Source of the DNA: an uncultured Ilumatobacter sp.
GTDB lineage: Bacteria; Actinomycetota; Acidimicrobiia; Acidimicrobiales; Ilumatobacteraceae
NCBI GenBank assembly: GCA_905182555.1
Contig: CAJJBX010000002.1
Coordinates: forward strand, 1 to 64,000
DNA: 64,000 nucleotides
Direction of reading: 5' to 3'
A model generated the notes under the pieces. The model did not search any database. It was not told the DNA's origin and saw only the letters and a program-made list of their open reading frames with translations. This document shows, piece by piece, positions 26,095 to 47,259 of this stretch (the stretch's first letter is position 1; each line of letters begins with the position of its first letter). Both the position numbers and the translations under genes were made by a program.

Positions 26095-26105
26095 AGGCCC
26101 CCAAG

Positions 26106-27045: not shown

Positions 27046-27118
27046 GTCCCGTTCGTCTAGCGGCCTAGGACTCCACCCTCTCAAGGTGGCGGCACGGGTT
27101 CGAATCCCGTACGGGATA
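27046..27118 (+). tRNA. tRNA-Glu (anticodon CTC)
   Basis: The 73-nt cloverleaf folds with acceptor arms GTCCCGT and ACGGGAT, anticodon stem CCACC/GGTGG around the loop CTCTCAA giving CTC, and T arm CGGGTTCGAATCCCG. The next three bases are CCA, so the 3' end may be encoded. It is the last gene before the pfa region. Confidence 0.95.
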
Positions 27119-27329
27119 CCAACACAACCCCCCAGTCACCATATTTAACACATGTGTTTTTTGCCTGCTCTGGAGGCGCCGTATTTGACTTCGTCGGGTT
27201 GGTCCCCACGAGTAACTGAGCACAGCGCATGTGAGACGTGTGATCCAGCCCTCTGGAGCGCTGACGGGCTGGCCGCGAGACGTTGCGCTGATCGACGTTT
27301 GCCGGTCAGCGCAAAAATCAGTCGATCGA

Positions 27330-27686: not shown

Positions 27687-29363
27687 ATGACGGCTACGTT
27701 CAATCTTGTGGCAAATGTTTCTACACTTGTTTTGGCGAGCACGCAGTCCGAAATCGTCGCCGGCTGGCGGGGCTCTGTGGCTCCCGCTCTCTCGGTGAAC
27801 GACCTCACGGCGGTCATCGAGCAGATACGTGAACGCGCCTACATCGTTGTTGACCCCATCACAGGCCAGCACGGTGTTGCTACCGGAGGCGGGCTCGTCG
27901 ACGAGAAGTCAGCTGGGGCCTGGCCCGTCATTGCGGTCCTGCCGGCGATGTACCCAGAGTGGCTGGGTGATCGCAGCTTCAACGAAGTGCACGGGACCCG
28001 ATTCCCTTACGTCACCGGAGCGATGGCCAACGGGATTGCAACAACGCAGCTCGTGATCGCAATGGCACGCACCGGCTGCCTTGGCTTCTTCGGCGCAGCT
28101 GGCCTTCAACGCCATGTGGTCGCCGCAGCGATCGAGGAACTCCATGATGCGCTCGGGCACACCGGTTTGCCGTGGGGCTGCAACCTCATCCACTCACCGC
28201 AAGAGCCAGCGCTCGAAGAGGCCGTTGCCGATCTCTACATCGAGCGCGGCGTTCGCAGAGTGTCGGCCGCCGCCTACATGTCATTGACGCCTGCGATCGT
28301 GCGGTACGCGTACAGCGGCATTCACATCGACGAAGACGGCAACGTCCAGCGCCCGAATATGGTGTTCGCCAAGATCTCACGCCCCGAGGTCGCTCGACAC
28401 TTCGTCCATCCGGCCCCCGAGGCGATGCTCACAGCACTCGTAAGTAAAGGACAGCTCACTGCCGCCGAAGCGGCGCTCGCCGCGTCGTTGCCGGTCGCTG
28501 AAGACATCACGATCGAAAGCGACAGCGGCGGCCACACCGACAACCGTCCACTCGCACCGCTGTTCGCCACGATCCAAGCAGTCCGCGACGAGGCCGTTGC
28601 ACAACACCGCTATACCCGGCCTGTTCGCCTCGGGGCTGCTGGCGGCATCGGCACGCCGCAGGCCGCAGCGGCAGCATTTGCACTCGGCGCCTCGTACGTC
28701 CTCACCGGCACGATCAATGAAGCATGCGTCGAGTCGGGCCTGTCGGATGAGGGCAAGCAAATGCTTGCAGCAGCCGACATCGCCGATATCGCTATGGCAC
28801 CCGCCGCCGACATGTTTGAGATGGGCGTCGAACTCCAAGTGCTGAAACGCGGCACGATGTTCGCGCCGCGGGCCAAGAAGCTGTACTCGCTTTACACCAC
28901 GTACCCGAGCCTCGATGCGATTCCCGATACGGAGCGGATCGAGGTCGAGCAGAAAATCCTCGGCGCCACGTTCGACGAGTGCTGGGAAACAACCAAGGCA
29001 TTCTGGAACGACCGCGAACCAGCCCAGGTTGTCGAAGCCGAGCAGAACCCACGCCACAAAATGGCGCTCACCTTCCGTAGCTACCTCGGTTTGTCGAGCC
29101 GGTGGTCAATTGAAGGGGCCACAGACCGTCGCCTCGACTACCAGATCTGGTGTGGGCCGGCCATGGGCGCTTTCAACGCCTGGACAGCTGGCACCTTCTT
29201 GGCCGATCCAGCCAACCGTCAGGCTGCACAAGTCGCTCGCAACATGCTCGAAGGTGCCGCCGTTGTCACCCGAGCCCAACAACTCCGCACCTATGGCGTG
29301 CCGGTTCCGGCGGCGGCTTTCGACTACCGCCCCCGCCCATTGCACATCGGCAACGAACTCTGA
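27687..29363 (+). CDS. pfaD: PfaD-type enoyl reductase of a PUFA/secondary-lipid synthase
   Basis: This 558-residue flavin-dependent enoyl reductase is of the PfaD (2-nitropropane-dioxygenase-like TIM barrel) family. Motifs include GTRFPYVTGAMANGIATTQL, TGCLGFFGAAGLQ, RPVRLGAAGGIGTPQAAAAA with the FMN-phosphate loop, and DIADIAMAPAADMFEMGVEL. The C-terminal YQIWCGPAMGAFNAWTAGTF and LTFRSYLGLSSRW are typical of PfaD. It would reduce enoyl groups on the ACPs of PfaA. ATG 27687 gives a family-like start with GWRGSVAPALS. It is the first gene of the pfa cluster and lies 45 bp before pfaA. Confidence 0.93.
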   Translation: MTATFNLVANVSTLVLASTQSEIVAGWRGSVAPALSVNDLTAVIEQIRERAYIVVDPITGQHGVATGGGLVDEKSAGAWPVIAVLPAMYPEWLGDRSFNEVHGTRFPYVTGAMANGIATTQLVIAMARTGCLGFFGAAGLQRHVVAAAIEELHDALGHTGLPWGCNLIHSPQEPALEEAVADLYIERGVRRVSAAAYMSLTPAIVRYAYSGIHIDEDGNVQRPNMVFAKISRPEVARHFVHPAPEAMLTALVSKGQLTAAEAALAASLPVAEDITIESDSGGHTDNRPLAPLFATIQAVRDEAVAQHRYTRPVRLGAAGGIGTPQAAAAAFALGASYVLTGTINEACVESGLSDEGKQMLAAADIADIAMAPAADMFEMGVELQVLKRGTMFAPRAKKLYSLYTTYPSLDAIPDTERIEVEQKILGATFDECWETTKAFWNDREPAQVVEAEQNPRHKMALTFRSYLGLSSRWSIEGATDRRLDYQIWCGPAMGAFNAWTAGTFLADPANRQAAQVARNMLEGAAVVTRAQQLRTYGVPVPAAAFDYRPRPLHIGNEL

Positions 29364-29408
29364 TTGTCCCGAACAGCGAACCAACCCAGAACCATGCAGG
29401 ACGCACCC

Positions 29409-32400
29409 ATGTCTGAACATTCACGATCGAACCGACCACCCGTTGCCATCGTTGGCGTCTCGGCGCTCTTCCCAGGTTCCGTCGACTCGACCGGCTTCTG
29501 GAACGACATCCTGGCCGGCACCGACCGGATGACCGATGTGCCGCCGAGTCATTGGCTGATCGAGGACCACTTCGACGCTGACCCATTGGTCCCGGACCGC
29601 ACCTACGGCCGCCGTGGTGGCTTTCTCGACCCCGTCGATTTCGACGCGATGGCCTTTGGTGTTCCGCCGAGCGTGGTGCCATCCACCGACACGGCACAGC
29701 TGCTCGCACTGATTGTTGCCCAACGCGTCCTCGACGACGCGGTGCGCGGCCAGTTCAGCGAACTCGACCGGACCCGTGCGTCGGTCATCCTCGGCGTTAC
29801 CTCTGGCCAGGAACTCTTTGGTGCAATGGCGAGTCGAATGAGCCGCCCGATGTGGTTGCAGGGCATGCGCCGCGCCGGCATTGCCGAAGACGTCGCATTG
29901 GAAGCCTGCGACCGGATTCTCGCGCTGCATCCCGAGTGGACCGAGAGCACGTTCCCAGGTCTCCTCGGCAACGTCGTCGCCGGCCGAATCGCAAACCGTC
30001 TCGACTTGGGCGGCACGAACTGCGTCACTGACGCTGCGTGCGCGTCGTCGTTCTCGGCCATCTCGATGGGCGTCAACGAGCTGTACCTCGGTGACAGTGA
30101 CCTCGTCATCGCCGGCGGTGTCGACACCATGAATGACATCTTCATGTACATGTGCTTTTCGAAGACACCTGCGCTGTCGAAGTCCGAAGATATCCGGCCG
30201 TTCTCTGATCAGGCTGACGGCACCATGCTCGGCGAAGGCATCGGCATGGTCGCGCTCAAGCGACTCGAAGACGCCGAGCGCGACGGCAATGACATCTATT
30301 GCATTGTCAACGGCATTGGCGCAAGCTCTGACGGACGGTCGAAAAGCGTTTACGCGCCTGTGTCGGAAGGCCAGGCGCGAGCCCTCGACAACGCTTACAG
30401 CAAAGCTGGTTACGGGCCCGACACGGTGGAGTTGATCGAAGCACACGGAACGGGAACGGTGGCGGGCGACGCTGCCGAATTTGGCGGTCTCCAGCTGGCC
30501 TTTGATGCGTCGGATCGCATGGATCGTCAGTGGTGTGCACTTGGAACGGTCAAGAGCCAGATCGGACACACCAAGGCCGCAGCCGGCGCCGCTGGCTTGT
30601 TCAAGGTTGTGATGGCGCTCCATCACAAAGTGCTGCCGCAGACTGCCAAGATCGACAAGCCAAACCCGAAGCTCGACCTTGAGAACTCGCCGTTCCACCT
30701 GAACACCACGACACGGCCGTGGGTGCGTGGCTCCGACCACGAACGCCGTGGCTCGGTCAGCTCGTTCGGATTCGGTGGATCCAACTTCCACATTGCCCTG
30801 TCTGAGTACACCGGGTCGGGCGCGCATGCGCCGCGGTTACGCAGTAGCGACGTCGAGATGGTGGTGCTCTGTGGTGCTGACGCGGCCGACGTCTCCGCGC
30901 AGGCAGCACAAATGTTGAGTGACCTCGTCGACGGCCAACTGGCCTTCCTTGCACAGACAACGCAGGGCGCGTACGACGCGTCGAAGCCCGCCAGGTTGGC
31001 CGTGATTGCCACCGACGAAGACGATCTGGCAAGCAAGCTCGCCCAGGCAGTCGACAGCGTCACAAAAGCGCCCGGCACCGCGTTTTCGACACCTACTGGC
31101 GTGCACTACGGCGTGGGTGGCCAGAGTGGCGATGTCGCATTCCTTTTCCCTGGCCAGGGAAGTCAGTACGTCGGCATGGGCGCCGACCTGGCCATGAATT
31201 TTGCTGAGGCGATGACTGCGTGGGACCTCGCTGCCGACCAGGCTTGGGACGAAAAGACGCTCCACGAGGTCGTCTTTCCGATCACCTCGTTCGAAGACGG
31301 CGCAGCGAGCGTCAACCAGGCCCTCCTCACCGCAACACACTGGGCGCAGCCTGCCATTGGCACAATGAGCCTCAGCTTGTTGCGGGTGCTCGACTTGATC
31401 GGGCTCGATGCGCAACACGTCGGAGGGCACAGTTTTGGGGAAATCACCGCGCTTCACGCGGGTGGCGTCCTCACCGACGTCGACATGGTGCGCGTCGCTC
31501 AACGGCGCGGCGTCCTCATGGCCGAGGCAGCACAAACACCGGGGTCGATGACTGCGGTCACCGGCTCGATTGAGTCGGTTCGGGCGATCCTCGAACAGTC
31601 TGACGCCGACGTCGTCATCGCGAATCACAACAGCCACCGCCAGGTCGTCCTGTCCGGGCCGACCGAGGCCATCGAGCGCATCGAAGCCGACCTGACCGCT
31701 CAGGGCGTTGCCGCCAAGCGGTTGCCGGTTGCAACGGCCTTCCACTCGTCGGTGGTTAGCGGCGCCAGCTCGGCGTTCGGGGACTTCCTCACCGACGTGG
31801 CCTTCGCCGTGCCGACCAGTCCTGTCCACGCGAACGAGACCGCCGAGCCATACAACGGCGACGACGAGTCTGCTGCGGGCACAGCTCGCCCGACAGCTCT
31901 CGAACTCTGTGCGCTTCGTCGAGATGGTCGAATCAATGTACGACAGCGGTGCGCGCATCTTCGTCGAAGTTGGCCCATCGTCAGTCTTGACCGGCCTCGT
32001 CGGCAACATCTTGGATGGTCGAGATCATCGGGTCATCCCGCTCGACAAGAAAAACAAGGGCGGCCTCTCAGCGTTCCACAATGGCTTGGGCCAACTCGTC
32101 GCCGCTGGTGTCGAGATGGACCTCGGCGGGCTGTGGCGCGAGTACGGCGACATCGCGAACCCTGCCGATGCACCGATCCCCAAGCTCGCCATTCCGATCA
32201 ACGGCGCCAACTACGACAAGCCGTATCCCCCGCACGACCTGAACGAACTCGCCGAGGCAAATCACGTGACTCCCACCGCACCCGCCACCCCAGCCAGCAC
32301 CCCGGCCAGCACTCCCGGCCAGCACTCCGGCCAGCACTCCGGCCAGCACTCCGAACGCGGCTGTGCAGCCGGCTCCGGCGGCCGCGCCCGCAGGGGTGCC

Positions 32401-35020
32401 GGGCCCGGCATCTCCCGCGGTGCAGGCTCCGGCTCCGCCAGTGCAGGCGGCGGCGAGCGTCGCTCCCGACTCAGCAGTGCTCGCGGCGTACCAGAGCGCC
32501 CAGCACCAGACAGCTGTGGCCCACACCGCTTACCTGAACTCGATGGCCCAAGCGCACAGCGCCTTCCTCGATGCTGCCCAACACGGGATTGCCGTACTTG
32601 GCCAACTCGCCGGGGGAACCGCACCGGCAATCGCTGCCCCGACCGCCGTGCCGGTCATCGCTGCTGCACCGACTCCGGCTCCTGTTGCTGCGCCGGTTGT
32701 CGCAGCGCTTGCGCCCGCACCGGTTGTCGCAGCGCCCGCGCCCGCACCGGTTGTCGCAGCGCCCGCGCCCGCACCGGTTGTCGCAGCGCCCGCGCCCGTT
32801 GTGCCGGTTTCAGCTGCGCCGGTTTCGGTTTCAGCCGCGCCGGTTTCGGTGGAGGAGATGACGCCGAAGTTGTTGGGTGTGGTGTCGGATCGGACGGGTT
32901 ATCCGTCGGAGATGTTGACGATGGATATGGAGTTGGAGTCGGATCTGGGGATTGATTCGATTAAGCGTGTTGAGATTTTGAGTGCGATGCAGGATTTGGT
33001 GCCGGAGTTGCCGGAGGTTGATCTTGCGGTGATGGCGGGTCTTGCGACGCTCGGAGAGATCGTGGCGTACCTCACCGACCAGGCCAGTGGTGCAGCTGTG
33101 TCAGCGTCTGTCGCACCTGCCGCATCGGTTTCGGTTTCAGCTGCGCCGGTTTCGGTTTCAGCCGCGCCGGTTTCGGTTGAGGAGATGACGCCGAAGTTGT
33201 TGGGTGTGGTGTCGGATCGGACGGGTTATCCGTCGGAGATGTTGACGATGGATATGGAGTTGGAGTCGGATCTGGGGATTGATTCGATTAAGCGTGTCGA
33301 GATTTTGAGTGCGATGCAGGATTTGGTGCCGGAGTTGCCGGAGGTTGATCTTGCGGTGATGGCGGGTCTTGCGACGCTCGGAGAGATCGTGGCGTACCTC
33401 ACCGACCAGGCCAGTGGTGCAGCTGTGTCAGCGCCGACAACCGCGCCGACAACCGCGCCGACAACCGCGCCGACAACCGCGCCGCCAGCGTCGTTATCCG
33501 GCGCAGCTCTCCAGGAGGACGCGGCAGATGCAGCAGCAAGCGGCTTCGGTCGATTCGTCGTACGGGCACATTCGCTGCCGCTGCCAGGCTCGCCGCTTCC
33601 CGGGTTGCTTGACTCCCCGATTGCAGTTGTCGGCGATCCGGATGGCATCGGAACGGCGCTCGTCGCAGCGCTTGCTGCTGCCGGCGCAGACGCTCGACTG
33701 ATCGATGCCGTTGCCGATTCTGGCCAGAACAGTGTCATCTACCTGGCCAATCTTCGGTCCGTGACCGATTCGGGCAAGGCGAGCTCACTCAACCGAGATG
33801 CATTCGAAGCGGCCAAGTCCTTCGCTCCCGCTGCGGCGTCAGGCGGCGTCTTCGTGGCAGTCGACGACCAGGGTGGCGCGTTCGCAACGACCGGTGGCGA
33901 CGCCGAGCGGGCATGGGCTGGCGGGCTTGCTGCGTTGATGCGCACCGCTGGAATCGAGTGGCCCTCAGCGTCGCTGAAAATGATCGACATCGATGGCGCT
34001 GGCCGCGCGGCGCAACTCGTGGCTGCGGACATCGCCAGCGAACTCCTCAACGGTGGAGCCGATCGAGAGGTCGGCCTCGATGCAGACGGAACACGTATTG
34101 GACTGCGCGCAGAGCCGGTTGACGTGACCGCAGGAACGCTGCCAATTGGTGCCAATGACGTTGTCGTTGTTTCCGGTGGCGGGCGCGGCGTCACTGCGGC
34201 AACGACCATTGAACTGGCCCGATCGTCGCAGGCAGCCTTCGTGCTGCTCGGTCGCTCGGAGCTCACTGAGGAGCCCGAGCCCGAGCACTATGGCGCGGCG
34301 CACGATGACGCTGCCTTGAAGCAGTTGCTGCTTGCCGAATCCAAGAAAGCTGACGAGAAGCTCACTCCGGCGAAGCTGAAGAAGCTCGTCGGTGGGGTGC
34401 TTGCCAACCGGGAGATCCGAGCCACGCTCGCATCGATCGAAGCCGCGGGCGGCCGGGCGAGCTACCTGGCTGTCGACATCACTGACGCCTCTGCAGTGAG
34501 GAGCGCACTTGAGTCGGTGCGATCCGATGTCGGGCCGATTAGTGGCCTGATCCACGGTGCTGGCGTCCTCGCCGACAAACTGATCGCCGACAAGTCGTCA
34601 GCACAGTTCAAGATGGTGTTCAACACCAAAGTCGAAGGACTCCGGAACCTGCTCGATGCCACCTCGGGCGATCAACTCGCTGTGCTGTGTCTGTTCTCGT
34701 CGGTTGCGGCGCGAACCGGAAACATCGGTCAGGCCGACTATGCAATGGCCAATGATGTTCTCAACAAGGTGGCTGCTCACGAACGGGTACGCCGCGGTGA
34801 CAGCTGTGTGGTGAAGTCGCTGGGCTGGGGCCCATGGGCGGGCGGCATGGTGACGCCGGCCCTCAAGACGCACTTCGAATCGATGGGCGTGGAGCTGATC
34901 GACCTTGATGTCGGGTCGCGGATGCTCGTCGACGAACTGTCGAGCCCACAGACCGACCAGGTCGAGATTGTTTTGGGCGGCGGCGTGATTGCGCCCGCAA
35001 GCCAACGGATCAATGCATGA
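29409..35020 (+). CDS. pfaA: PfaA-type PUFA/polyketide synthase (KS-MAT-ACP-ACP-KR), two frame changes
   Basis: This multidomain synthase elongates and reduces acyl chains on its own ACPs. The ketosynthase spans about residues 9-460: Cys in DAACASS near residue 211, His in EAHGTGT near 346, and KSQIGHTKAAAG. The malonyl transferase has FPGQGSQYVGMG and GHSFGE, with Ser near residue 675. A Pro/Ala linker leads to two ACPs (GIDSIKRVEIL, Ser codons at 32957 and 33284). The C-terminal ketoreductase has SGGGRGVTAATTIELA and SSVAARTGNIGQADYAMAND. It reads as one protein only with a frame change near 31876 (between DDES and AQLARQLSN) and another at 32314-32316. It ends shortly after the KR with no dehydratase. 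ATG 29409 follows AGGA; the stop overlaps pfaC by 8 nt. Confidence 0.92.
32283..32352. repeat. 12-nt tandem repeat in the MAT-ACP linker of pfaA, one unit 13 nt long
   Basis: About five units of GCCAGCACTCCG-type sequence would encode repeated Pro-Ala-Ser-Thr. One unit, at 32311-32317, has an extra C (CTCCCGG instead of CTCCGG). Downstream the coding frame is shifted by exactly one base, so this tract is where one of the two pfaA frame changes occurs. Confidence 0.8.
32805..33433. repeat. Tandem duplication of the ACP-coding segment, 327-nt period
   Basis: Copy 1 (32805-33106) and copy 2 (33132-33433) are about 302 nt each and differ at only two bases that I can see, both silent Val codons. 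Each copy encodes a Val/Ser/Ala/Pro spacer and one ACP. The short stretch between them is unique. Within each copy, 64 codons from the ATG at 32858 or 33185 almost completely avoid C-ending codons. Confidence 0.92.
33434..33485. repeat. 12-nt tandem repeat encoding Thr-Thr-Ala-Pro after ACP2
   Basis: The unit CCGACAACCGCG is repeated four times in frame, forming a TTAP linker between the second ACP and the ketoreductase part. A separate 27-nt unit (encoding APAPVVAAP-type sequence) is repeated about three times at roughly 32705-32795 in front of ACP1. Confidence 0.85.
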
Positions 35021-38000
35021 CCCGAGCCGAACGGTGAGCACCTTTTCGCCAATCGCCGTCGTGGGGCGCGCCTGCGTGCTGCCTCGCGCCATGTCTCCTG
35101 TCGAACTTTGGGAACGCGTGGTGTCGGGCACCGACTTGACCTCGACCGTCCCGAAAGATCGATGGGGTATTGCTCCGGCTGACGTTCTCTGCGACCCGGA
35201 GAACGACAGCACCGATCGCATCTGGTCTGATCGCGGAGGCTACGTCTCTGGCTTCGACGACGTGTTCGACGCCACCGGCTTCGGTCTCCCTGCCGACGAG
35301 ATCACCGGCCTCGACCCGGTCTTCCAGTGGACATTCCACACCGCACGCGAAGCACTCCGCGACGCCGGATATGGCGAGCACGATGCGGCGCGCTTCGGAG
35401 CCGTGTTCGGCAACCTGTCGTTTCCATCGGCAAGTATGGCCGCGTTCGCTCAGGCGGTCCACCTTGCCGATGGAGCCCTTCCTGACGCACATCTTCCTGA
35501 CGCCCGCAACCGGTTCATGTCGGGGCTCCCTGCGCTCATGCTGGAACGTGCGCTCGACCTCGGTGTCGGCGCCATGGCACTCGACGCGGCATGCGCCAGC
35601 AGTTTGTACGCAATTAAGCTGGCGTGCGATCGCCTGCACGACGGTGAGGCCGACCTGATGTTGGCCGGCGCGGTGAACTGCGCTGACGACCTGTTCATTC
35701 ACCAGGGTTTCACTGCGCTGAACGCGTTAAGTCCGACCGGTCAGTCGCGGCCTTTTCATCCCGAAGCGAACGGTCTCGTCCCTGCTGAGGGTTGCGGCTT
35801 CGTGGCACTTTATCCTTGACGATGCAGTGCGCGATGGCGACACGATCCACGGGATTATTCGCGGTGTCGGCCTGTCGAACGATGGCCGTGGACGGGGCAT
35901 GCTCGCGCCGGCGGTCGACGGCCAGGTTCGAGCCATGCAGACAGCGTTCGACGTTGCGGGCATCACGCCGAATGACATCTCTCTGCTCGAATGCCACGCA
36001 ACAGGAACGAGCGTCGGTGACGCCACCGAGATTGAGTCGAGCGCGCGCGTTTATTCCGACTGTTCTGACCTCGCGATCGGCTCGTTGAAGTCGAATACCG
36101 GGCACCTCATTACCGCAGCCGGCGTCGCCGGGGTCATCAAGGTCATCGAGGCAATGCGCAACGAAGTGCGGCCCCCGACTCTGCACGTCGACAACGAACT
36201 CGCCGCGCTCGGCGGCTCGCCGTTCCGCGTCCTCAGTGCTGCTGAGCCTTGGGCCCGTGGAGACGTGGCTGATGGCGTGCTCCGGGCCGGAATTTCAGCC
36301 TTCGGGTTCGGTGGCAACAACGCACACCTCATCCTCGAAGAACCGACGACTGCAACACAGCTCGTAGCCAACAGTGCGGAGCCCACCGAGCTGAACAGCG
36401 CCGCACCGGTTGCACAAGCCCTACCGATTGCCATTGTTGGCATTGGCATCGCGGCGGCCAGTGCAATCGGCTTTTCGGCCTTTCGCGATGCTCTCGTCGG
36501 GAACACTTCATGCCTCGACGCCGACGGTGCCGGGCGGCTGCCTGACATCGAACTTCAGCTCGCCGCGCAGAAGTTCCCCCCGAACGATCTGAAGGCGACG
36601 CTCAGCCAGCAACTCGCGATGCTGCAGGTTGCCGATGAAGCATTGACCAATGCCGGAACTCTGCCGACCGACACGACGGGCATCTACGTCGCGATGGGCA
36701 CCGACCCGGAAGCCGCAAGGTTCGGAACCCGCTGGCGACTCGCTGCTCAGCATGTCGGTACAGCTCAATCGCTCGCGGATGCACGCGACCTGGTTGGTCC
36801 ATCACTCACTGCTGCGGGTGTGCTCGGCACGATGCCGAACCTGGTCGCCAACCGGCTGAATAGTCAGTACAACGTGGCCGGGCCGAGCTTTACCGTGAGC
36901 GGTGAGGAACACAGCGGCCTCGACGCCCTGCGGATTGCAGCGCGAGCGCTTCGCTGCGGTGACATCGACGCAGCGCTCGTCGGTGCAGTCGATCTTTCCT
37001 GCGACCCGGTCCATATCGCCGCTGCGTCAACTGCGCTGGCGAAAGAGCGCCGCGTCCCGGGCGACGCGGCCGTCATGCTCGTGTTGAAGCGACTCGACGA
37101 CGCCGAGCGCGATGGCGACACCGTGTATTCGCTCGTGTGCGATGCGCTGAGCGACCAGAACGGCAACGCTGCAGACCCCGGCTCGGTAAGTGACCTCCGC
37201 CTGGGATTGAGTGACAACGCCCGGTCGGTCACTGACCTGTTCGGCCACGCTCACGCTGCATCGGGCCTGGTGCATGTTGCAGCAGCAGCCGTCATGCTGC
37301 ACCACCGCGTGGAGCGGGGCGATGTTCCGTTGATCGCGTCGAACCCCGAGCAAGGCAGCGGCTTGCCCGATGGTGCCGGCCCCCGAACCGTGTCGGTCGA
37401 GACAACCGCGATGGACGGCATCGCGCACCGTTCAGTGCTCCTCGCCGAAGCAACGAACCACCTTGCACCGAGCCGAGCGGTCCCACCCGCACTGCACGTC
37501 TACTCGGGAGCAAATGCTGCAGCGGTCCTTGACGCACTGACTGCTCGACGTGAATCGTCCGAGGGCCCCGCGCGGCTAGTGATTGTTGCCGCTGATGCAG
37601 CGCAACTCGCTGAGCGAGCAGCGCGAGCCGAACAGCACATCACCGCAGGCAAGCCTGCGGGAACCGGGGTGCACTTCGCCGCCGTGCCTACCCAAGGCGA
37701 ACTGGGCTTCGTGTTCACCGCCGGGGGAGCGGCCTACAACGGTATGGGCGCTCAACTGTTCCGTGCACTGCCAGAATCGATCACGCCGATTTCGACCAAC
37801 TTTCCGCTCGGGCAGATCTCCAACTGGGTCAACGATCCTGACCACGTGCCGCTGCCCGCCGACTACCTGTGGGGTACTGCGCTGCTCAGCCAAGCGCACG
37901 CCGAGATCACGTTGGGTCTCCTTGGCCTCAAGCCGTCGGCAGCAATCGGCTACTCGTCAGGCGAAAGCAACGTGCTCTACGCCTTTGGCGTGTGGCGTGA

Positions 38001-41000
38001 TATGGACGCAATGCGTCGTGAGATCGACGCGACGGGAATGCTCACCAACGAGATTGCCGTCGATTTCGATGCTGTCGCCCGAGCTTGGAACGTCGACCGG
38101 GTCGACTGGGCCGTGTGGAACGTGCTCGCCCCGATCGACGATGTGCGTGCCGCAATCGCCGACGAGCCCCATGTCCACCTCATGCTGATCAACACCGAAC
38201 GCGACCTCGTCATTGCTGGTGATGCGCAAGTTTGTGGTCGCATCGTCGACACCTTCGGAGTTCAGCGCTGCCGTCCTGTTGGCTACAACCTCGCCTGCCA
38301 CGTTCCCGAGGTCGCGGCGGAGTTCCATCAGCCCTGGCTCGACGTGCACACGCGCGACGTCACGGCGGTGCCGGGGGTGCGGTTCTATTCGAACGGCGTC
38401 GGTGGGGCTTACGACGTCAGCACTGAAAACTGTGCTGCAGCAATTACACGGCAGGCCGAGACGACCGTCGACTTCCCGATGACGATCCGGGCCGCCTACG
38501 ACGACGGTGTCCGTATCTTCGTCGAGCATGGCCCTTCCGGTGCCTGCACCAACTTCATCCGTGAGATCTTGGGTGATGATGTGCTCGCCCTGCATGTCGA
38601 CCGCCGTGACAGCAACATCGAGCAACTCTTCGATGTGTGCGCAGCGCTGGTAGCTGTCGGTGTCGAGGTCGATCATGACGCGCTGACTTCCAGGTTGAGT
38701 CAATGCACACCTGAGCGCACCGCTTCCAGCGGCCCGGTGATGTCGTTCCCGGCTCATCGAGCGCCCGTCCGCCGGAACACGCAACCTGTGGTTGCCCACC
38801 AGACGATGGCGCCCGCACCAGTCTTGCCGTCCATTTTTGACTCGATGGCGGAACGCGATCGTCTGATCGAGGAAGTGCCGAGTATCGATGCAGTCGATGA
38901 TTCGTTACCGGCAGCCGTAGCCGTGCCTGTCGCTCAACTCGTCGGCGCCACGCCTGGGTACTTGGTTGCCACGAACGCGGCGGATGTGATGCAAGAGCAG
39001 ATCACGGCGATGGCCACCATGCACCAGAACTTTGTGGCGCAGCAGGCAGCCATTCACGAGCAGTTCCTCGCTGTCCGGGCCAGCTCACTCGATCTGCTCT
39101 CGCACGTTGGGACGACACAGTCCGCAGTTCTTGGGTCGGCGCTGATTACTCAGCCACCGCCAACTGTCGTGCCGGTCACTCAACGGATCGCTCAGCCAGC
39201 GCACGCCGTTCAACCGGCACCAGCGCCAGCGCCAGCACCAGCGCCAGCACCGGGCATCGAGCGGCACCCGGGTCCGAAGTGGGATAAGGCGCAGCTCGAG
39301 ATCCATTCATCCGGACGGATCTCGGAACTGTTCGGAACGCTCTTCGAGGCGCAAGATCAGTACGAAGTGCAGTGCCGCATGCCGGAGCCGCCCCTGCTGC
39401 TTGCCGACCGAGTGACCGGCATGGTTGCTGACGCTGGCGTATTGGGCGTCGGGACCATTTGGACAGAAACCGACATCGAGCCAGGTGCGTGGTATCTCAA
39501 CGACGGCTATATGCCAGCCGGATTCATGATCGAGTCAGGCCAGGCCGATCTGATGCTGATCAGCTACATGGGCATCGATCTGCTCAACAAGGGTGAGAGG
39601 TCCTATCGGCTGCTCGGCTGCACGATGACGTACCACGGCGATCTTCCCACGGTCGGTGACACGCTTGAGTACGAGATTCGGATTACCGGCCATGCCAAGC
39701 ACGGCGACATCCGGCTGTTCTTCTTCGAGTACGACTGCATCGTCGACGGCGAGCTGCGTTTGACCGTTCGTGATGCGCAGGCCGGCTTCTTCACCAAACA
39801 AGAACTCGCCGATGCACTTGGTGCGCTCTGGACCCCCGAGTCGGCTCAGGCAAACCTGCGTGCTGACGCCCGCGTCGACGCACCACCGATTCTCGGCACG
39901 AAGTCAGCCTTCACCGCAGGTGAGGTCCGGGCATTTAGCGAAGGACGCGTCGTCGAGTGTTTCGGGCCGGGCTTCGAGTGGACCGAGACGCACACGCGTA
40001 CGCCGAAGATTCAGGCCGGTGACCAACTTTTCATCGACGAGATCACTGACTTCGATCCAACCGGTGGCCCATGGGGGCGCGGCTTTATGCGCTGCGAGTC
40101 GACCATTGCGGCCGACGCGTGGTTCTTTGACGGGCACTTCAAAAACGACCCATGTATGCCGGGCAACTTCATGGTCGAAGCATGCATCGAAGCAATGTCG
40201 TTTTACCTTGCGGCACTCGGTCACACGGCTCGTGTCGATGGCTGGCGGTTCCAACCGCTGCCGGGACAACCCTTCGAGTTGAAGTGCCGCGGCGAGATCA
40301 ACCCCCAGACCGATCGGGTCGCCTACGAGCTGTACGTCGAAGAGGTCTGGGATGGCCCGCACCCGACGATTATCTGCGACGTGCTCGGATTCGTCGATGG
40401 CAAGGCTGGATTCCACGCGCATCGTCTCGGCGTTGAACTCGTCCCCGGCTGGCCGCTTACTTCGATGCCCGAGGTGTGGGAGAACGTGGTTGAACCGGTC
40501 GCTGTCGCCACCGACGCGGCAGGGTTTCGGTTTGACTGGAAGGCCATGATCTCGTGCGCATGGGGCAAGCCGTCTGATGCGTTCGGGTCGATGTACGAGG
40601 CATTCGACATCACCCGGAGATCGCCTCGGTTGCCGGGTGAGCCGTATCACTTCATCAGTCGCGTCACTCAGATCGACGGCGACCTTGACGACTGTAAGGC
40701 CGGCCTCGAGATCGTCTGCGAATACGACATACCTGACGACGCCTGGTACTTCGACGAGAACGGCGCCGAGACCATGCCGTTTGCCGTGCTCCTCGAAGCC
40801 GCACTGCAGCCCTGTGGCTGGGTCGCGTCTGCAGTTGGCTCGGCGAACAACATCGACGAAGATCTGCTGTTTCGCAACCTTGACGGCACGGGCACCGTGG
40901 TCGACGAGCTGACGCGGACGTCTGGCACCTTGTCGACGCACGTGAAGCTCACGAGCGTTTCTCGCGCTGGCGGGATGATCGTCGAAGGCTTTGAAGTCGT

Positions 41001-42597
41001 CTGCTCCCTCGGCGATCGGGTCGTCTACACGATGCAAACCGTCTTCGGCTTTTTCCCGCCGGCGGCCTTCGAAGACCAGGTTGGATTGCCGGTGACGAGC
41101 GACCACCATGCGCTCAGTGAGCTGATCGTTGCAGATGCCTCGGCCAAGACCGACCTCACTTTACGGCCTGAGCGATTCTTCTCGGGCACAGCCCGTCTGG
41201 CCAACGAGATGCTGCTGATGGTCGATCGTGTCGTCCACATCGAGACGCAGGGCGATGCCGGGCTCGGGGTCATCGTGGGGGAGAAGGACGTCGACGTCTC
41301 TGAGTGGTTCTTCAAGGCTCACTTCTTCCAAGACCCGGTGCAGCCGGGCTCACTCGGTGTCGAAGCGCTCCTTCAACTACTCCAGTACTTCATGCTCGAC
41401 ACGGCAATGGATGCAGGCGTCGACGATGCACGGTTTGAACCAATGCTGCTCGGTGCGCCGATGGTTTGGAAGTATCGCGGCCAGGTGACTCCAAAGAACG
41501 AGATGATCACGACGGTGATGGAAATCACCGAGGTCGGCGTTGACGATGTTGGGCCGTTCGTCATCGGCGCCGGTTCGCTCTGGTGCGACGGACTGCGCAT
41601 CTATGAGGTGTCGAACATGGGGATGCGCCTGGTGTCAGGTGCCCCAAGTGAAGTGTCTGTGCTGTCGGGTTCAGCCGAGGTTCTTGACAACGACACAACA
41701 GCCCAGACAACCGCGCAGGCCGACCACACAACCGTGACGAATGAGCTTGCGATCAGCGTTGGCTTGTCGCATCATCCGCAGCTGATCGATCATGCGGTCA
41801 ACGGCGTCCCGGTCGTGCCGGTTGTCTTTGTCGTCGAGTGGTTCGCCCGGCTCGCTGCAGCGAATTGCCCCGACCTGCACCTTGTCGCCCTGACCGAGCT
41901 TCGTGTCCTGCGCGGCCTGATCGCCGACGACTACTTCCATGGCGGCAGCCTCGACGTAGTTGCTGCAGTGATCGACTCAGAAGCCAGTGGCAAAGGCCCC
42001 GAGATGGCTCGCCAGTTGACCCTGCAGCTCACGAACACAGCGACTGGCCGAGCCCACTACCGATGTACGGCGCACATGGCTCCGACGGCACCGTCGGCTG
42101 TTGACCTTGCCGGTATCAACCCTGCAGCCGTGGCCGACAGCGAGCCTTGGACGTCGGAGATCTACTTCGGCGACGTCTTGTTCCACGGTCCGGCGTTCCG
42201 TGTGATCGAAGAGATCGTTGGTGTGTCGGAGTCGGGCATCGATGCGCGCTGCTGGGGTGTCAGAGCCGTCGGGTGGCCGAACGAGACATGGACATCGGAC
42301 CCGGCGCTGCTCGACGGCGCCTTGCAACTCGCGCTGCTCTGGACCGAGCGTCAACTTGGCCTGCCATCGCTGCCAACCGGAATCGGTGCGGTTCGGCTGC
42401 TCTGTGAGCCGACTTTTGGGCAACACACGATGTCGCTTGTCGGCCGCCGCACCTCATTGCATATGGTCGTGTGCGATGTTGAGATTCGCTCAGCGGCGGG
42501 CCACGTCGTTGCCCAACTCGAGGGCATCGAAACTCACGTCCTTGCACCGTCCGAACTTCCGTCCGAACCCCCGTCCGAACCCGCGTCCGAAGACTGA
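35013..42597 (+). CDS. pfaC: PfaC-type PUFA/polyketide synthase (KS-CLF-AT-hotdog x4-PKS-type DH), one frame change
   Basis: This protein of about 2,500 residues begins with a ketosynthase (DAACASSLYA, then CHATGT and KSNTGHL). A chain-length-factor copy follows from about 36415, where the active-site Cys region reads GPSFTVSGEEHSG, with no Cys. An acyltransferase domain has IGYSSGESNVLYAF, followed by an Ala/Pro linker. Four FabA-like hotdog units follow: two with intact His (GHFKNDPCMPGNF and AHFFQDPVQPGS) alternating with two lacking it. The C-terminus is a PKS-type double-hotdog dehydratase (HPQLIDHAVNGVPVVP, then DPALLDGALQL). A frame change is needed near 35811-35815, between GFVAL and LDDAVRDGD. 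It ends in 12-nt repeats (SEPPSEP). Confidence 0.9.
42548..42595. repeat. 12-nt tandem repeat at the 3' end of pfaC
   Basis: Four units of a CCGTCCGAACCC-type sequence encode a Pro-Ser-Glu-Pro tail immediately before the stop of pfaC. Confidence 0.85.
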
Positions 42598-42629
42598 CTC
42601 GGCAAGTCGCCGATGAAGGAGTCACAGCG

Positions 42630-43024
42630 ATGTCAAACGTCGAACTGATCGCAGCTGACGACACAACATCGTGCAGTCATACGCCCCGTTCTCGAAATTC
42701 AGGGCGGGCGCAGCTGTTCGTTGCAGCGATGACCGGATGGTGCCTGGAGTCATCGTCGAGAACGTCTCGCTGGGGCTTTCGATGTGTGCTGAGCGGGTGG
42801 CAATGTTCTCTGCTGTCGCGCAGGGCACGCGGCCCGTTGCGCTGGCACTCGCGGCCCCAGACACCGACGGTGGCCCGACGTGGCCATGCGGCGCGTGTCT
42901 CCAGGTCGGCCTCGAACTCGGCGGCCCCGACATGTTGGTTGTCGTGGGCGACAACAAGGGCGGTCCGGTGCAGCAATCCACGATTGGCGAACTACTCCCG
43001 CGCGGCCCCCACGTCAACGTCTGA
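42630..43024 (+). CDS. cdd: Cytidine deaminase, with an N-terminal frame change
   Basis: This small zinc enzyme deaminates cytidine to uridine. The main frame gives QSYAPFSKFRAGAAVR, then VENVSLGLSMCAERVAMF (CAE zinc/catalytic site) and WPCGACLQVGLEL (PCGAC zinc ligands). The N-terminal helix, MSNVELIAADDTTS from ATG 42630 behind a GAAGGAG ribosome site, lies in another frame; one missing base near 42671 would join them. Tyr-Ala-Pro would then stand near residue 18, as in the family. As written, translation needs a GTG at about 42671 and would lack the first helix. It is 32 bp after pfaC. Confidence 0.85.
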
Positions 43025-43098
43025 GCGCATTCGGGACTGCGCCCGGCGCGATTCATGCGACTCGCTCCGCGCCCGGGTCATCGTGGGATAATGCTGGG

Positions 43099-43902
43099 AT
43101 GGCAGCCAACAGTCGTCTTACCGTTGCCGATCTTCGTGCAAGTAAAGGCACACGTCAGTACACCGATGTCTACGTCTCAAGCGTTGACGAGGCCGCCGCT
43201 GCAGCGGATGGTGGGATCGACATAATCACCATCCAGGACTCTCAAATGAGTACCGAGATGCGATCTGCTGCAGGCAATGCATTCATTGTGGTCGGCCTCG
43301 ACTACGGCCAGGTGATCACGACTGATGACTACCTGCGTGCAGCATTCTCGGCAATCAACAATGGCGCCGACGCGTGCTGGTGCGCAGCATCGGTGCAAAC
43401 CATAGAGCGATTGGCCGCCGAAGGCATTCCGGTTGTCGGCCACGTCGGCCTCATCCCGCCGCGTCGTACCTGGACCGGCGGGTTCAAGGCGGTTGGCAAG
43501 ACGGCGACCACCGCGATGGAGGTATGGAGTCAGACCGCAGCGCTGGTCGATGCTGGTGCATTTGCCGCTGAGATCGAAGTAGTTCCCGAACCGGTCGCCA
43601 CGGCGATCAGCGCGAAGACAAGCCTCGTGATGATCTCGATGGGCTCCGGCCCGAACTGTGATGCGCAGTATCTGTTTAGCTCCGACGTGCTCGGCACCAA
43701 CACTGGCCACGTCCCACGGCATGCGAAGCAGTACGCCGACTTGCGGACCGAACTCGATCGAATCCAAGAGATGCGGGTCGCCGCCTACGCGGCATTCGTC
43801 GATGACGTTGCCTCGGGCGGTTTCCCTGACGCAGCGCGATTGGTTGGTATTGACCCTGGCGAACTTGCGACGTTCGCGTCTGCCCTCGCCGCCGAACAAT
43901 GA
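43099..43902 (+). CDS. PanB-like protein (ketopantoate hydroxymethyltransferase family)
   Basis: This 267-residue TIM-barrel protein is of the PanB/PEP-mutase superfamily. The middle and C-terminus match PanB: GIPVVGHVGLIPPRRTWTGG, then the EIEVVPEPVATAI region, with the Glu at the catalytic position, and SMGSGPNCDAQYLF and DVLGTNTGHVPRHAKQYAD. The first metal-ligand region is altered (IITIQDSQMS in place of the usual GDSLG), but the Asp is kept, and so is a second Asp (VVGLDYGQ). It may make ketopantoate, the precursor of CoA and phosphopantetheine, or be a paralogue with another substrate. It is placed between the pfa cluster and the GNAT gene, overlapping the latter (ATGA). Confidence 0.75.
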   Translation: MAANSRLTVADLRASKGTRQYTDVYVSSVDEAAAAADGGIDIITIQDSQMSTEMRSAAGNAFIVVGLDYGQVITTDDYLRAAFSAINNGADACWCAASVQTIERLAAEGIPVVGHVGLIPPRRTWTGGFKAVGKTATTAMEVWSQTAALVDAGAFAAEIEVVPEPVATAISAKTSLVMISMGSGPNCDAQYLFSSDVLGTNTGHVPRHAKQYADLRTELDRIQEMRVAAYAAFVDDVASGGFPDAARLVGIDPGELATFASALAAEQ

Positions 43903-44450
43903 CCACGCCGAGCACGATCGAAACCGAGCGGCTGCTGCTGCGTCCGTTTCGGGGTGATGACTTCGAACCGATGGTCGAATTTTACGCCGACCCGGTCTCG
44001 AAGTTCTATGGCGGCCCCTGTAGCAGAGAAGAAGCGTGGCGCAAGTTCGCTGTGTATCCCGGGCACTGGGCGTTGCGCGGTTACGGCCCGTGGGCGATTG
44101 AAGTGAAAGCAACGGGGCGATTCGCCGGGGTCTGCGGCCTGTGGAATCCTGACGGCTGGATTGAGCCAGAGATCACGTGGGCGCTCGTGCCCAATCATCA
44201 CGGCATGGGCTACGCCACCGAAGCCGCCCGACGGGCCCTCCAGGCCGCCTACGAAGACCACGGGTGGACAACAGCGGCGAGCGTGATCGCCGTTGCCAAC
44301 GTTGCGTCAGCAGCTTTGGCCGAGCGCCTCGGCGCAACGATCGAGTCCGAACAGCAAAACCGTTATGGCCCCGTCCACGTGTACCGGCACATCCCGCCCA
44401 CCAGCATCCCGCCCACCAGCATCCCACCCACCGTATGGAGCGCATCATGA
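43899..44450 (+). CDS. GNAT N-acetyltransferase (RimJ/RimL-like)
   Basis: This 183-residue acetyltransferase opens with IETERLLLRPFRGDDFEPMV, typical of the RimJ/RimL group. The acetyl-CoA binding region is VPNHHGMGYATEAARRALQAA. The acceptor is unknown. Both ends overlap neighbours by 4 nt (ATGA), so PanB-like, GNAT and the two SDR genes form one coupled unit. The C-terminus is a 15-nt repeat encoding IPPTSIPPTSIPPT (about 44393-44435), which looks like a recent extension rather than part of the fold. Confidence 0.85.
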   Translation: MTTPSTIETERLLLRPFRGDDFEPMVEFYADPVSKFYGGPCSREEAWRKFAVYPGHWALRGYGPWAIEVKATGRFAGVCGLWNPDGWIEPEITWALVPNHHGMGYATEAARRALQAAYEDHGWTTAASVIAVANVASAALAERLGATIESEQQNRYGPVHVYRHIPPTSIPPTSIPPTVWSAS

Positions 44451-45214
44451 TCACTGTCAACAACTCGACTGACCTCACCGGTCAAGTCGCCCTCGTCACG
44501 GGTGCAACATCTGGCCTCGGCTGGCGCTTCGCCCAGGTGTTGGCCGCTTCCGGTGCATCTGTCGTTGCGACCGGTCGACGTCAAGAACGGCTCGATGAAT
44601 TGGTCGCCGCCATCGTTGCTGATGGTGGTCAGGCAGTGGGCGTCCCGATTGACATGACCGACGCCGACAGCATCGTTGCCGCTGTCGACCAGGCCGAAGC
44701 GGCGTTCGGTGCTGTCACCATCCTTGTCAACAACGCAGGCATCCCCGATGCGCAACGCGCGCACAAGATGTCGCTCGAACTGATCGACAAGGTCATTGAC
44801 ACCAACTTGCGCGGGCCGTACATCCTGTCCTGCGAAGTCGGCAAGCGCCTGATTACCGCGAAGTTGCCGGGGCGAATGGTCAACGTCTCCAGCATCGCGG
44901 CCACCAACTACGGCGGCGAAGGCGCCGCGCTGTACTCGATCACCAAAGCAGCCATTGCCCGCATGAGCGAGGCGCTCGGCGTCGAGTGGGCGCGTTTCGG
45001 CATCAACGTCAATGCGATCGCCCCGGGGGCATTCGAATCGGAGATGATGGACGGCATGCTCGAACGGATGGGCGACATCAGCGGGCACTTCCCGCGCAAG
45101 CGGATTGGTCGACCGGACCAGCTCGACTCGACCCTGCTTTTCCTCTGTTCTCCAGCTTCTGATGCAGTCACCGGCACGATCATCAAGGTCGACGACGGCC
45201 AGAGTTCGCGATGA
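44447..45214 (+). CDS. Short-chain dehydrogenase/reductase (SDR), first of a pair
   Basis: This 255-residue classical SDR has the cofactor motif TGATSGLG at about residues 18-25, the NNAG motif (ILVNNAGIPD), catalytic Ser in VNVSSIAATN, and YSITK with the catalytic Tyr and Lys. An Arg after the second strand (ATGRRQERLDEL) suggests NADP(H) preference. The substrate is unknown. It is coupled to the upstream GNAT gene and the downstream SDR gene by 4-nt overlaps. Confidence 0.9.
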   Translation: MITVNNSTDLTGQVALVTGATSGLGWRFAQVLAASGASVVATGRRQERLDELVAAIVADGGQAVGVPIDMTDADSIVAAVDQAEAAFGAVTILVNNAGIPDAQRAHKMSLELIDKVIDTNLRGPYILSCEVGKRLITAKLPGRMVNVSSIAATNYGGEGAALYSITKAAIARMSEALGVEWARFGINVNAIAPGAFESEMMDGMLERMGDISGHFPRKRIGRPDQLDSTLLFLCSPASDAVTGTIIKVDDGQSSR

Positions 45215-46086
45215 CCGCCATGTCGAACGGCCAGATGGGTCAACTTAATGGCAAGGTCGCGGTGATCACCGGCGCAGCAAGCGGCATGGGTCTCGCAACA
45301 GCGCAACGCTTCGTCGCGGAAGGAGCGGCTGTCGTCATTGCCGATTTCAATGCCGATGCCGGCGAGGCAGTTGCTCGTGAACTTGGTGACGCAGCGCGAT
45401 TCGTCCGCTGCGACGTGGCGATTGACGGTGATGTCGCATCTGCGGTGGCCCTTGCCATTGAAGCGTTTGGCCGGCTCGACATCATGTTCAACAACGCGGG
45501 CATCGGGGGAGCGTTCGGGCCAATCACAGAGATCGAGTCAGACGACTGGGATGCAACCTTCGCCGTCCTCGTCAGGGGCGTGTTCCTCGGAACCAAGCAC
45601 GCTGCGCGTGTGCTGATCGATCAAGGCGACGGGGGCGTGATCATCAACACGGCATCGGTCGCAGGCCAGGGTGGCGGCGGCGGGCCACAGGCCTATTCCG
45701 CCGCCAAGGCTGGGGTCATCAACCTCACCGAGACGACAGCAATCGAATTGGCCCCGCATGCCATCCGAGTCAATGCCATTTGCCCGGGGATCATCTTCAC
45801 CCCTTTGATGCACCATGGTGACGAAGTCGACGCCGAACGTGTGATGGCGGAACTGCAGCCGTATCCCAAGCGGGGTGAGGGGGCTGACATCGCGGGCGCA
45901 GCATTGTGGCTGGCCGGGCCCGACTCAGCGTTCGTCACGGGCACGTCGATCACGGTTGACGGCGGGATCAGCGCTGCAGGCACCCGATTGTTCGGGCGGT
46001 TAAACGGGACGACAAAGCTCGATCGCGTCGTCGGTATCGCGCACGGCACGACTGGCCAGAAGCCGACGGTCCGCCGGCTCGACTGA
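45211..46086 (+). CDS. Short-chain dehydrogenase/reductase (SDR), second of a pair
   Basis: This 291-residue classical SDR has TGAASGMG near the N-terminus, IMFNNAGIGG, catalytic Ser in INTASVAGQGG, and YSAAK. An Asp after the second strand (VVIADFNADAGE) suggests NAD(H) preference, unlike the preceding SDR. A C-terminal extension of about 35 residues (GRLNGTTKLDRVVGIAHGTT) goes beyond the usual fold. It overlaps the preceding gene (ATGA) and converges with the methyltransferase with no gap. Whether the pair acts on the pfa product is speculation from position only. Confidence 0.9.
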   Translation: MTAMSNGQMGQLNGKVAVITGAASGMGLATAQRFVAEGAAVVIADFNADAGEAVARELGDAARFVRCDVAIDGDVASAVALAIEAFGRLDIMFNNAGIGGAFGPITEIESDDWDATFAVLVRGVFLGTKHAARVLIDQGDGGVIINTASVAGQGGGGGPQAYSAAKAGVINLTETTAIELAPHAIRVNAICPGIIFTPLMHHGDEVDAERVMAELQPYPKRGEGADIAGAALWLAGPDSAFVTGTSITVDGGISAAGTRLFGRLNGTTKLDRVVGIAHGTTGQKPTVRRLD

Positions 46087-46722
46087 TCAGGTCGCGATGA
46101 GGGTCACGTCGTGGACGCCATCGTCGAACTCGCTGTGGCCGGGCAGGTACGGTCGAGGCGGTGAGACGTCGACGGTGCACCGGCCTTGCTCAGCGAGTCG
46201 CTGGAGTACAGCGTCCATCTGGCGGCTTTCCCACAGTTTGACGCGCTGTGTGAAGACGATCGGGCCACCGTGGCGAACGATGCGTAAGAACTCTCGAAGC
46301 ACGGCCTCGGGCTCGGTGAGATAGCTGAAAACGCCACCGGAGACGACGGCGAGAAAGCGCTGCGATGTAAACGGCAGCGGTTGGCTGAGATCAAGAACAT
46401 GCAGCTCTCGGTACACATCGCGTTGCTTTGCGACGTTGATCGACTCGGGCGAGAAATCGGCGCCAATGACCGATGCGACACCGACAGCATCGAGCGCACG
46501 GCCAACAAGGCCGGTGCCGCAGCCGGCATCGAGCACGTCACCGTTGGTGGCGCCAGCAGCGGCGACCACCGATGCGAGTCGTTCAGGAACCTCGTAGCCC
46601 CACGACTGCACGTCGGTGTCGTACGTCGACACCCAGTCGTCGTAGACCCCAACGACTTCGGCCGGTGATGCGTCTGACACCGCGGCCAGGCCCTGCCCGT
46701 CAGCGTTCATTGACTTCGGCAT
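46087..46722 (-). CDS. SAM-dependent methyltransferase
   Basis: This 211-residue class I methyltransferase has motif I GDVLDAGCGTGLVGRAL and motif II VIGADFSPESINVAKQR. YDDWVSTYDTDVQSWGYEVP near the N-terminus resembles the same region of the methyltransferase at 18621-19280 (RWAASYDDELTRQGYQTPQ), so the two are distant paralogues. The substrate is unknown. It starts 3 bp after the pyrophosphatase stop on the same strand, so the two genes are probably cotranscribed. Confidence 0.87.
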   Translation of the reverse strand: MPKSMNADGQGLAAVSDASPAEVVGVYDDWVSTYDTDVQSWGYEVPERLASVVAAAGATNGDVLDAGCGTGLVGRALDAVGVASVIGADFSPESINVAKQRDVYRELHVLDLSQPLPFTSQRFLAVVSGGVFSYLTEPEAVLREFLRIVRHGGPIVFTQRVKLWESRQMDAVLQRLAEQGRCTVDVSPPRPYLPGHSEFDDGVHDVTLIAT

Positions 46723-46725
46723 GGG

Positions 46726-47259
46726 TCAGGTGCTCGAGACAGCGCGGGCAATGGCGTCGACGATCATTTGTTTTGCCTCTGCAGCATCACCCCAGTGATC
46801 AATTCGCACCCACTTGTTCGGTTCGAGGTCTTTGTAGTGCTCGAAGAAGTGCTGGACCTGTTCAAGAGTGATCGTTGGTAGATCGGTGTAGTCGGCGACA
46901 TTTTGGTATCGACGGCTGACATGGCTGCTCGGAACCGCCAAGATCTTTTCGTCTTGGCCAGCGTCGTCTTCCATGACAAGAACGCCGACGGGGCGGCAGT
47001 TGATGACGCCTCCAGGGATGATCTCGCGGGTGTTGCACACGAGCACATCGATCGGGTCGCCGTCTTCGGACAAAGTGTGCGGGACGAAGCCGTAGTTGCC
47101 GGGATACCTCATTGGGGTGTACAGGAATCGGTCAACGAACAGGGCGCCCGAGGCCTTGTCCATCTCGTACTTGATTGGTTCGCCGCCGACGGGTACCTCG
47201 ATGATGACGTTGATGTCATCAGGCGGGGTGTTGCCGGTAGGGATCTTGTCGAGCCGCAT
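46726..47259 (-). CDS. ppa: Inorganic pyrophosphatase (family I)
   Basis: This 177-residue family I enzyme hydrolyses pyrophosphate to drive biosynthetic reactions. It shows [32 protein letters not shown] and [10 protein letters not shown] with the metal-binding Asp cluster, and [20 protein letters not shown] 47259 gives the size of the E. coli enzyme; a GTG 18 nt upstream is possible. It is the first gene of a leftward pair with the methyltransferase. Confidence 0.95.

Follow-up and report, generated by a model that had tools for sequence, protein, structure and literature searches.

Three adjacent genes in a 64,000-nt window (the whole stretch of DNA analysed) of a draft Ilumatobacter genome (G000; 2.56 Mb, 72.7% complete) resemble pfaD, pfaA and pfaC of polyunsaturated fatty acid (PUFA) synthases, and they raise the question of what kind of enzyme they encode, how it could work with a domain order of its own, and whether this copy still makes anything. 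The locus is a Pfa-type (PUFA/secondary-lipid) synthase of the order pfaD-pfaA-pfaC (Table 1), in which the polyketide synthase (PKS)-type dehydratase that closes PfaA in nearly all other loci stands at the end of PfaC. Taking the parts together, we hold with reasonable confidence that this is an iterative Ilumatobacter synthase, probably obtained from a myxobacterial-like donor, that was rebuilt by moving the PKS-type dehydratase to the end of PfaC and whose product is most likely a C18-C24 PUFA.

A Pfa-type synthase in Ilumatobacter

We compared the locus with those of other genomes, 80 of 185 loci being considered. Among the genus-mates, G006 is a complete one-contig genome of 4,830,181 bp, taken to be I. 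coccineum (coccineus) YM16-304, and G005 (69% complete) and G009 are further Ilumatobacter sp. The best matches of the window PfaD in the PDB are the PUFA-synthase PfaDs 6lkc and 4yx6 (516 and 508 bits), against 404 bits for DfnA and 336 for MlnA, and on these scores a trans-AT PKS enoyl reductase was rejected for this gene. Against TIGR02813, the PfaA model, the window pieces score 829 and 467 bits singly, below the cut-off of 1010 because the frame is broken, and the intact PfaA of G006 reaches 1420 bits. All motifs looked for were found in the pfaA and pfaC pieces. The chain-length factor (CLF) of PfaC has no active Cys, and the pair that it forms with the ketosynthase (KS) is accompanied by two FabA-type dehydratases; the acyltransferase (AT) of PfaC was assigned from its similarity to G006 and from a sub-cut-off match to PfaB. 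The original prediction, made from the letters alone, had described a pfaD-pfaA-pfaC cluster ending in hotdog domains. The cluster stood, with a PfaA of the type KS, malonyl acyltransferase (MAT), acyl carrier protein (ACP) and ketoreductase (KR), and a PfaC of the type KS-CLF-AT-FabA-FabA, but as genes that are frame-broken in the assembly for both pfaA and pfaC; two of the hotdogs are indeed FabA-type, but the last one is the PKS-type dehydratase, which is PfaA-terminal in nearly all other loci. The likeness of the gene order to that of myxobacteria, also proposed there, is borne out, and the neighbouring lineages include Myxococcota.

The KS phylogeny that had been suggested as a check gave the same answer. 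In a tree of 63 of the 123 KS rows, 12 of which lay outside the chosen list and were picked randomly, the window PfaA KS falls inside a PfaA clade of 25 rows (support 100/98) and the PfaC KSs form a clade of their own (18 rows, 100/99); neither clade takes in any of the type I PKS or FabF-like KSs sampled, and the grouping with ordinary type I PKSs that would have spoken for a different enzyme was not seen. The window PfaC KS is absent from the tree, because the frame break made it too short, and G006 and G009 stand in for it. An ordinary type I PKS is excluded by the KS tree and the profiles, although a putative PKS is the top PDB match for both KSs of G006. In G006 only three proteins match the ketosynthase family PF00109 at E <= 1e-25, namely PfaA, PfaC and one FabF-like protein.

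The eight acidimicrobial PfaA KS rows group together (98/96), beside L041, L042, L046, L059 and L082 (four Myxococcota and one Pseudomonadales), and the seven acidimicrobial PfaC KS rows (99/96) lie near L041, L042 and L059. An acidimicrobial ancestor probably received the cluster from a myxobacterial-like donor. Since Mycobacterium OTB74 and a Rhodococcus plasmid have Pfa KSs that are placed elsewhere in the tree, actinobacteria appear, as far as sequence kinship goes, to have gained synthases of this kind on more than one occasion.

The dehydratase at the end of PfaC

Among the loci with a visible KR, a PKS-type dehydratase starts 103-181 nt after the KR in 30 of 31 non-acidimicrobial entries (28 of 29 distinct loci) when 1500 nt are searched, the sole exception being L110 (Oculatella). 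Distinct loci are given beside entries because some entries repeat the same locus (G429=L041, G433=L053, L035=G009, L036=G426). No dehydratase was found within the 1500 nt after the KR in any of the nine acidimicrobial entries (seven distinct loci), where PfaC begins 162-199 nt after the KR. A PKS-type dehydratase is found behind PfaC in all seven of these loci, seen directly in six and on a separate contig in one. It lies directly behind the FabA-type domains of PfaC in G006, G009 and the window, and it is fused behind an AGPAT domain at the PfaC end in G426 and G428 (in the latter pfaC is on a different contig from pfaD, L038). G062 (L118), whose assembled pfaA is itself divided over two open frames, has it as a separate open frame of 423 aa on the reverse strand behind pfaC. 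The remaining one, in G427 (the genome of L037), is found at the beginning of a different contig, immediately preceded by the final part of a FabA-type domain, from which we infer that it belongs to the L037 locus. The free-standing dehydratase of G062 also carries an N-terminal helix-like stretch resembling the linker before the PfaA ACPs, perhaps a docking element.

We built a dehydratase tree of 43 rows, 42 of them different (Sorangium is present twice, as G433 and L053); hits aligned over fewer than 200 columns were excluded, as was the L041 duplicate in G429. The seven tails are placed among dehydratases that end PfaA, and together with L041, L042, L046 and L059 they make up a group of 11 rows (92/95). 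Further, at E <= 0.001 the window tail matches a single NCBIfam model, TIGR02813 for PfaA, near its end (positions 2309-2535 of 2582, 36 bits), and its predicted fold (pLDDT 88.5, pTM 0.87) matches PKS dehydratases, CurH first, with a TM-score of 0.66. Judged by the tree, the PfaA-profile match and the predicted fold, the PfaC tail is a relocated PfaA dehydratase, and the tree weakly favours one origin for the tails. All 16 aligned dehydratase rows share an invariant His and an invariant Asp, which we take to be the catalytic pair.

Frame breaks and neighbouring genes

In this assembly the frame of pfaA changes near 31868 and near 32310, the latter in a repetitive linker, and that of pfaC near 35810. 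The intact relatives, G006 (pfaA 1873 aa, pfaC 2399 aa) and G009 (pfaA 1744 aa, pfaC an open frame of 2521 aa), read through without a programmed frame shift. The breaks may be real, and the cluster of the window genome a decaying pseudogene in a lineage that is losing the synthase, an explanation to which we give a chance not far short of even. Three breaks fall within ~13 kb, and the two for which relatives could be aligned show no obvious homopolymer at the break. In G004, a close relative, the synthase has been lost: a stretch of 276 bases with two tRNA genes is 99.3% identical to the window and is followed by two pfaD scraps (contig L018:416-1171; one 69.6% identical over 450 columns that reach in part upstream of pfaD, the other 94.4% over 124) and then by window positions 42957-47117 at 92.9%. 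The scraps mark a deletion of ~14.9 kb, relative to the window, that held the synthase; they are flanked by the tRNA-Gln/Glu pair on one side and the PanB-like operon on the other. Among nine genus-mates PfaD is full-length in three, reduced to scraps in one and without a match in five, and of those at least 94% complete G006 has it while G007 and G008 do not. Across the class Acidimicrobiia, three of 395 sampled genomes match PfaD at E <= 1e-80, including the window's own and G006.

The coding sequence itself speaks otherwise, every piece showing purifying selection. The ratio of nonsynonymous to synonymous change (dN/dS) is 0.06-0.14 against G009 and 0.10-0.21 against G006 in every piece, with dS near saturation, compared with 0.10 and 0.16, respectively, for gltX. 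Changes on the window branch are not in significant excess over those on the G005 branch, either in pfaD (24 vs 13, chi2 3.27) or in the KS-AT part of pfaA (27 vs 25, chi2 0.08). Given the low dN/dS, the absence of a significant excess and the preserved motifs, the breaks would thus be recent or sequencing errors, and an old pseudogene is excluded by the dN/dS and relative-rate counts. Sequencing errors are possible because the genome is only 72.7% complete and other genes of the contig are frame-broken as well, although these other breaks cluster in seemingly accessory genes, which would fit decay. On contig C2 of G000, at ~88-90 kb and 144-146 kb (L020, L023), genes for a HrpB-like helicase and an OafA-like acyltransferase, named from their translations, are also frame-broken.

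Table 1. Synthase genes, domains and neighbouring genes in the window
Feature	Position (nt)	Strand	Evidence and remarks
pfaD, PUFA-synthase-type enoyl reductase, intact	27687..29363	+	TIGR02814, 616 bits (cut-off 449)
pfaA, whole	29409-35020	+	Split over three frames
pfaA piece 1, frame 0: KS and most of MAT	29409..31867	+	TIGR02813, 829 bits; DAACAS, EAHGTGT, KSQIGH, GHSFG
pfaA piece 2, frame 1: end of MAT and linker	31868..32310	+	tblastn with G006 PfaA; coding-potential path
pfaA piece 3, frame 2: two ACPs (DSIK) and KR	32311..35020	+	Stop right after KR, no terminal dehydratase; KR to PfaC KS 167 nt
pfaC, whole	35034-42597	+	Split over two frames
pfaC piece 1, frame 0: N-terminal part of KS (DAACAS)	35034..35810	+	Motif, tblastn
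pfaC piece 2, frame 1: rest of KS, CLF, PfaB-like AT (GYSSG), two FabA-type dehydratases, PKS-type dehydratase tail	35815..42597	+	Profiles, motifs
FabA-type dehydratase motifs in pfaC	WFFDGH ~40120; WFFKAH ~41305	+	Motif search
Relocated PKS-type dehydratase (DH1), end of pfaC	41731..42594	+	Conserved His ~41791, Asp ~42313; profile, tree, alignment, predicted fold
Cytidine-deaminase-like gene, frame-broken (two frames), directly after pfaC, outside the synthase	42630..43024	+	PF00383, 16.7 bits, below cut-off
PanB-like, GNAT, SDR, SDR; separate unit	43099..46086	+	4-nt overlaps; still present in G004, which has lost the synthase

The four genes from PanB-like to the second SDR overlap by 4 nt each, as first noted (PanB/GNAT 43899-43902, GNAT/SDR 44447-44450, SDR/SDR 45211-45214). 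The suggestion that they supply or tailor the product did not hold: G004 has kept this stretch without the synthase, and in G006 another gene on the other strand follows pfaC. No neighbouring tailoring gene is common to the Ilumatobacter loci compared. As to other neighbours, gltX, a DUF218 gene, tRNA-Gln and tRNA-Glu lie near the synthase both in the window (24650-27122) and in G006 (reverse strand of L013-L015, 42107-44715), where the order is turned round; in G009 gltX is also near the synthase.

Proposed working, product and known systems

The working proposed here is modelled on published synthases. PfaA would perform only malonyl loading, condensation and ketoreduction, with the KS-CLF of PfaC taking on some of the elongation. 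The two FabA-type domains of PfaC would dehydrate and isomerise, giving cis double bonds, and the PKS-type dehydratase would make a trans-2 bond that PfaD then saturates, the roles that have been described for these domain types (PMC9702510, PMC6731297). Because the PKS-type dehydratase ends PfaC and not PfaA, every 3-hydroxyacyl-ACP would have to reach PfaC for dehydration by either route. The PfaB-like AT inside PfaC would unload the chain, since the myxobacterial-type AGPAT release domain is absent; release of the chain has been reported for gammaproteobacterial PfaB (PMC12895367). AGPAT was matched in G426, G428 and G062 and in five non-actinobacterial loci (G433, G429, L072, L091, L081), with no match in G006, G009 or the window. 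The product would most likely be a methylene-interrupted PUFA of C18-C24.

How the ACPs would be primed is a separate matter. As the original prediction had remarked, no phosphopantetheinyl transferase (PPTase) is visible near the cluster, and there is none in the scanned genes around the synthase. Nor did the genome search that had been proposed as a check find an Sfp/PfaE-type PPTase in G000 (72.7% complete) or in the complete G006, each of which has one PF01648 protein and no 4PPT_N match; in 14 control genomes these profiles matched in 10 (PF01648) and three (4PPT_N). From its sequence the single protein of G000 is read as AcpS, and likewise that of G006 as AcpS-like, and the latter would have to prime the ACPs of I. 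coccineus. G009 has a second PF01648 protein, of the Sfp type, elsewhere in its genome; G005 (69% complete) gave no match to PF01648. A PPTase gene comes next after pfaC in G426, after the tail dehydratase in G427 and after the separate dehydratase gene in G062. In G428, G006 and G009 pfaC is followed by a different gene, encoded on the opposite strand.

The synthase might instead make a secondary lipid other than a PUFA, such as a long chain that is saturated, monounsaturated or hydroxylated and destined for another carrier; the relocation of the dehydratase and the lack of AGPAT would both reflect that change. In myxobacteria AGPAT is believed to transfer the chain to glycerol phosphate (PMC8436480), the cluster has no PPTase next to it, and the identity of the dehydratase alters the product of myxobacterial hybrids (PMC6731297). 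We nevertheless regard this as unlikely, given that the PUFA set is present with its motifs (both FabA-type dehydratase/isomerases, the KS-CLF and PfaD) and that the compared Ilumatobacter loci have no tailoring neighbour in common.

Several observations weigh against a rebuilt, PUFA-producing synthase of myxobacterial-like descent. The three frame breaks mean that the window copy may make nothing. The AT of the window PfaC scores 53 with the PfaB model, against a cut-off of 144, and no Pfam domain was called in its region (37957-39400). The number of ACPs is low, with two in tandem in the window, three in G006 and one each in G009 and G426, although single-ACP clusters are not excluded by Shulse and Allen (PMC3098273). 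The lack of a detectable Sfp/PfaE-type PPTase in the complete G006 leaves priming unproven. The sister group of the acidimicrobial KSs is weakly supported (95/46), as is the single origin of the tails (64/26; 68% of bootstrap trees), and in the PDB sequence search taken by itself the best match of the PfaA and PfaC KSs of G006 is a 'putative polyketide synthase' (7zma). Finally, a lipid profile of Ilumatobacter was not found in the literature searched, and PMC12263773 gives the fatty acids of another genus.

The relocation bears on how a PUFA synthase chooses the positions of its double bonds: in published hybrids, swapping the PKS-type dehydratase shifts the product between omega-3 and omega-6 (PMC6731297). 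A natural lineage that carries the domain on the other subunit, together with a cultured carrier, I. coccineus, makes the need for the ACP-KR tether testable. Further, it points to an actinobacterial group of possible PUFA makers that lack AGPAT and, in the case of I. coccineus, have no detected Sfp/PfaE-type PPTase.

That the tail never moved but is a PfaC-internal PKS-type DH4, PfaA having just lost its own dehydratase, is most improbable and was rejected on the dehydratase tree: DH4-type domains do exist in the PfaC of relatives, between FabA and AGPAT, and Minicystis rosea Pfa3 has one (PMC6731297), but the tree separates the six DH4 rows from all tail and PfaA-terminal dehydratases at 100/100, G062 has both a PfaC DH4 and a separate tail-type dehydratase, and it is the terminal part of the PfaA profile that the window tail matches. 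Returning to a relocated PfaA dehydratase, we tentatively suggest, at somewhat worse than even chances, that a staged move from PfaA to PfaC is still visible in the free gene of G062, the fusion behind AGPAT in G426 and G428, the position behind the FabA-type domains with a PPTase next door in G427, and the same position without that PPTase neighbour in Ilumatobacter; the choice between saturation and a cis bond would then be made on PfaC, where all dehydratases are gathered, and this would alter the product and offer a natural test of how double bonds are placed.

The presence of the cluster in Ilumatobacter is not new, since it was reported in 2013 for I. coccineum YM16-304 (YM304_13430, 13420 and 13410) as having a chimeric PfaC with an internal AT and no pfaE, with another transferase, YM304_08850, suggested as a possible substitute (PMC3910706). 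The window locus shares with it the genus, the three genes, their order, the chimeric PfaC and the lack of a pfaE found. In that paper the domain organisation of PfaA was called identical to that of Photobacterium profundum, whereas here PfaA has no terminal dehydratase, the domain is on PfaC, and the window copy has frame breaks. The relocated dehydratase, the frame breaks and the cytidine-deaminase-like gene had not been noticed in the original prediction; a dehydratase is listed among the canonical PfaA domains (PMC13291983), and no description of its move in the acidimicrobial group was found in the literature searched, which included sources available only in part.

The catalytic domain types are those of the marine gammaproteobacterial PfaABCD(E) systems, Types A and B, with matches to the PfaD and PfaA profiles; the gene order, the AT fused into PfaC, the relocated dehydratase and the lack of a PfaE found are different. 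Among the secondary lipid synthases of Types C, D, I and L (PMC3098273), the pfaBC fusion is shared with the window locus, Type L likewise has pfaD first, and Types C and D have KS-CLF-AT-DH2. In Type L, however, the AT comes after the dehydratases, and in Ilumatobacter between the CLF and the dehydratases, and unlike the window locus Type D has a split pfaA and Type C has pfaD last; a PKS-type dehydratase ending a fused pfaBC is not described in the part of that paper available. The DH4 of Minicystis is a PKS-type dehydratase on PfaC as well, but Pfa2 retains its own there (PMC6731297), and DH4 is a different domain from the Ilumatobacter tail. The myxobacterial Pfa1-Pfa2-Pfa3 synthases (Aetherobacter, Minicystis, Sorangium) have in common with the present locus the D-A-C order, the KS-CLF-AT-FabA-FabA core (Sorangium So ce26) and related KSs and dehydratases. 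In these the PKS-type dehydratase still closes Pfa2 and AGPAT closes Pfa3, whereas Ilumatobacter has neither in those places and carries its dehydratase at the end of PfaC.

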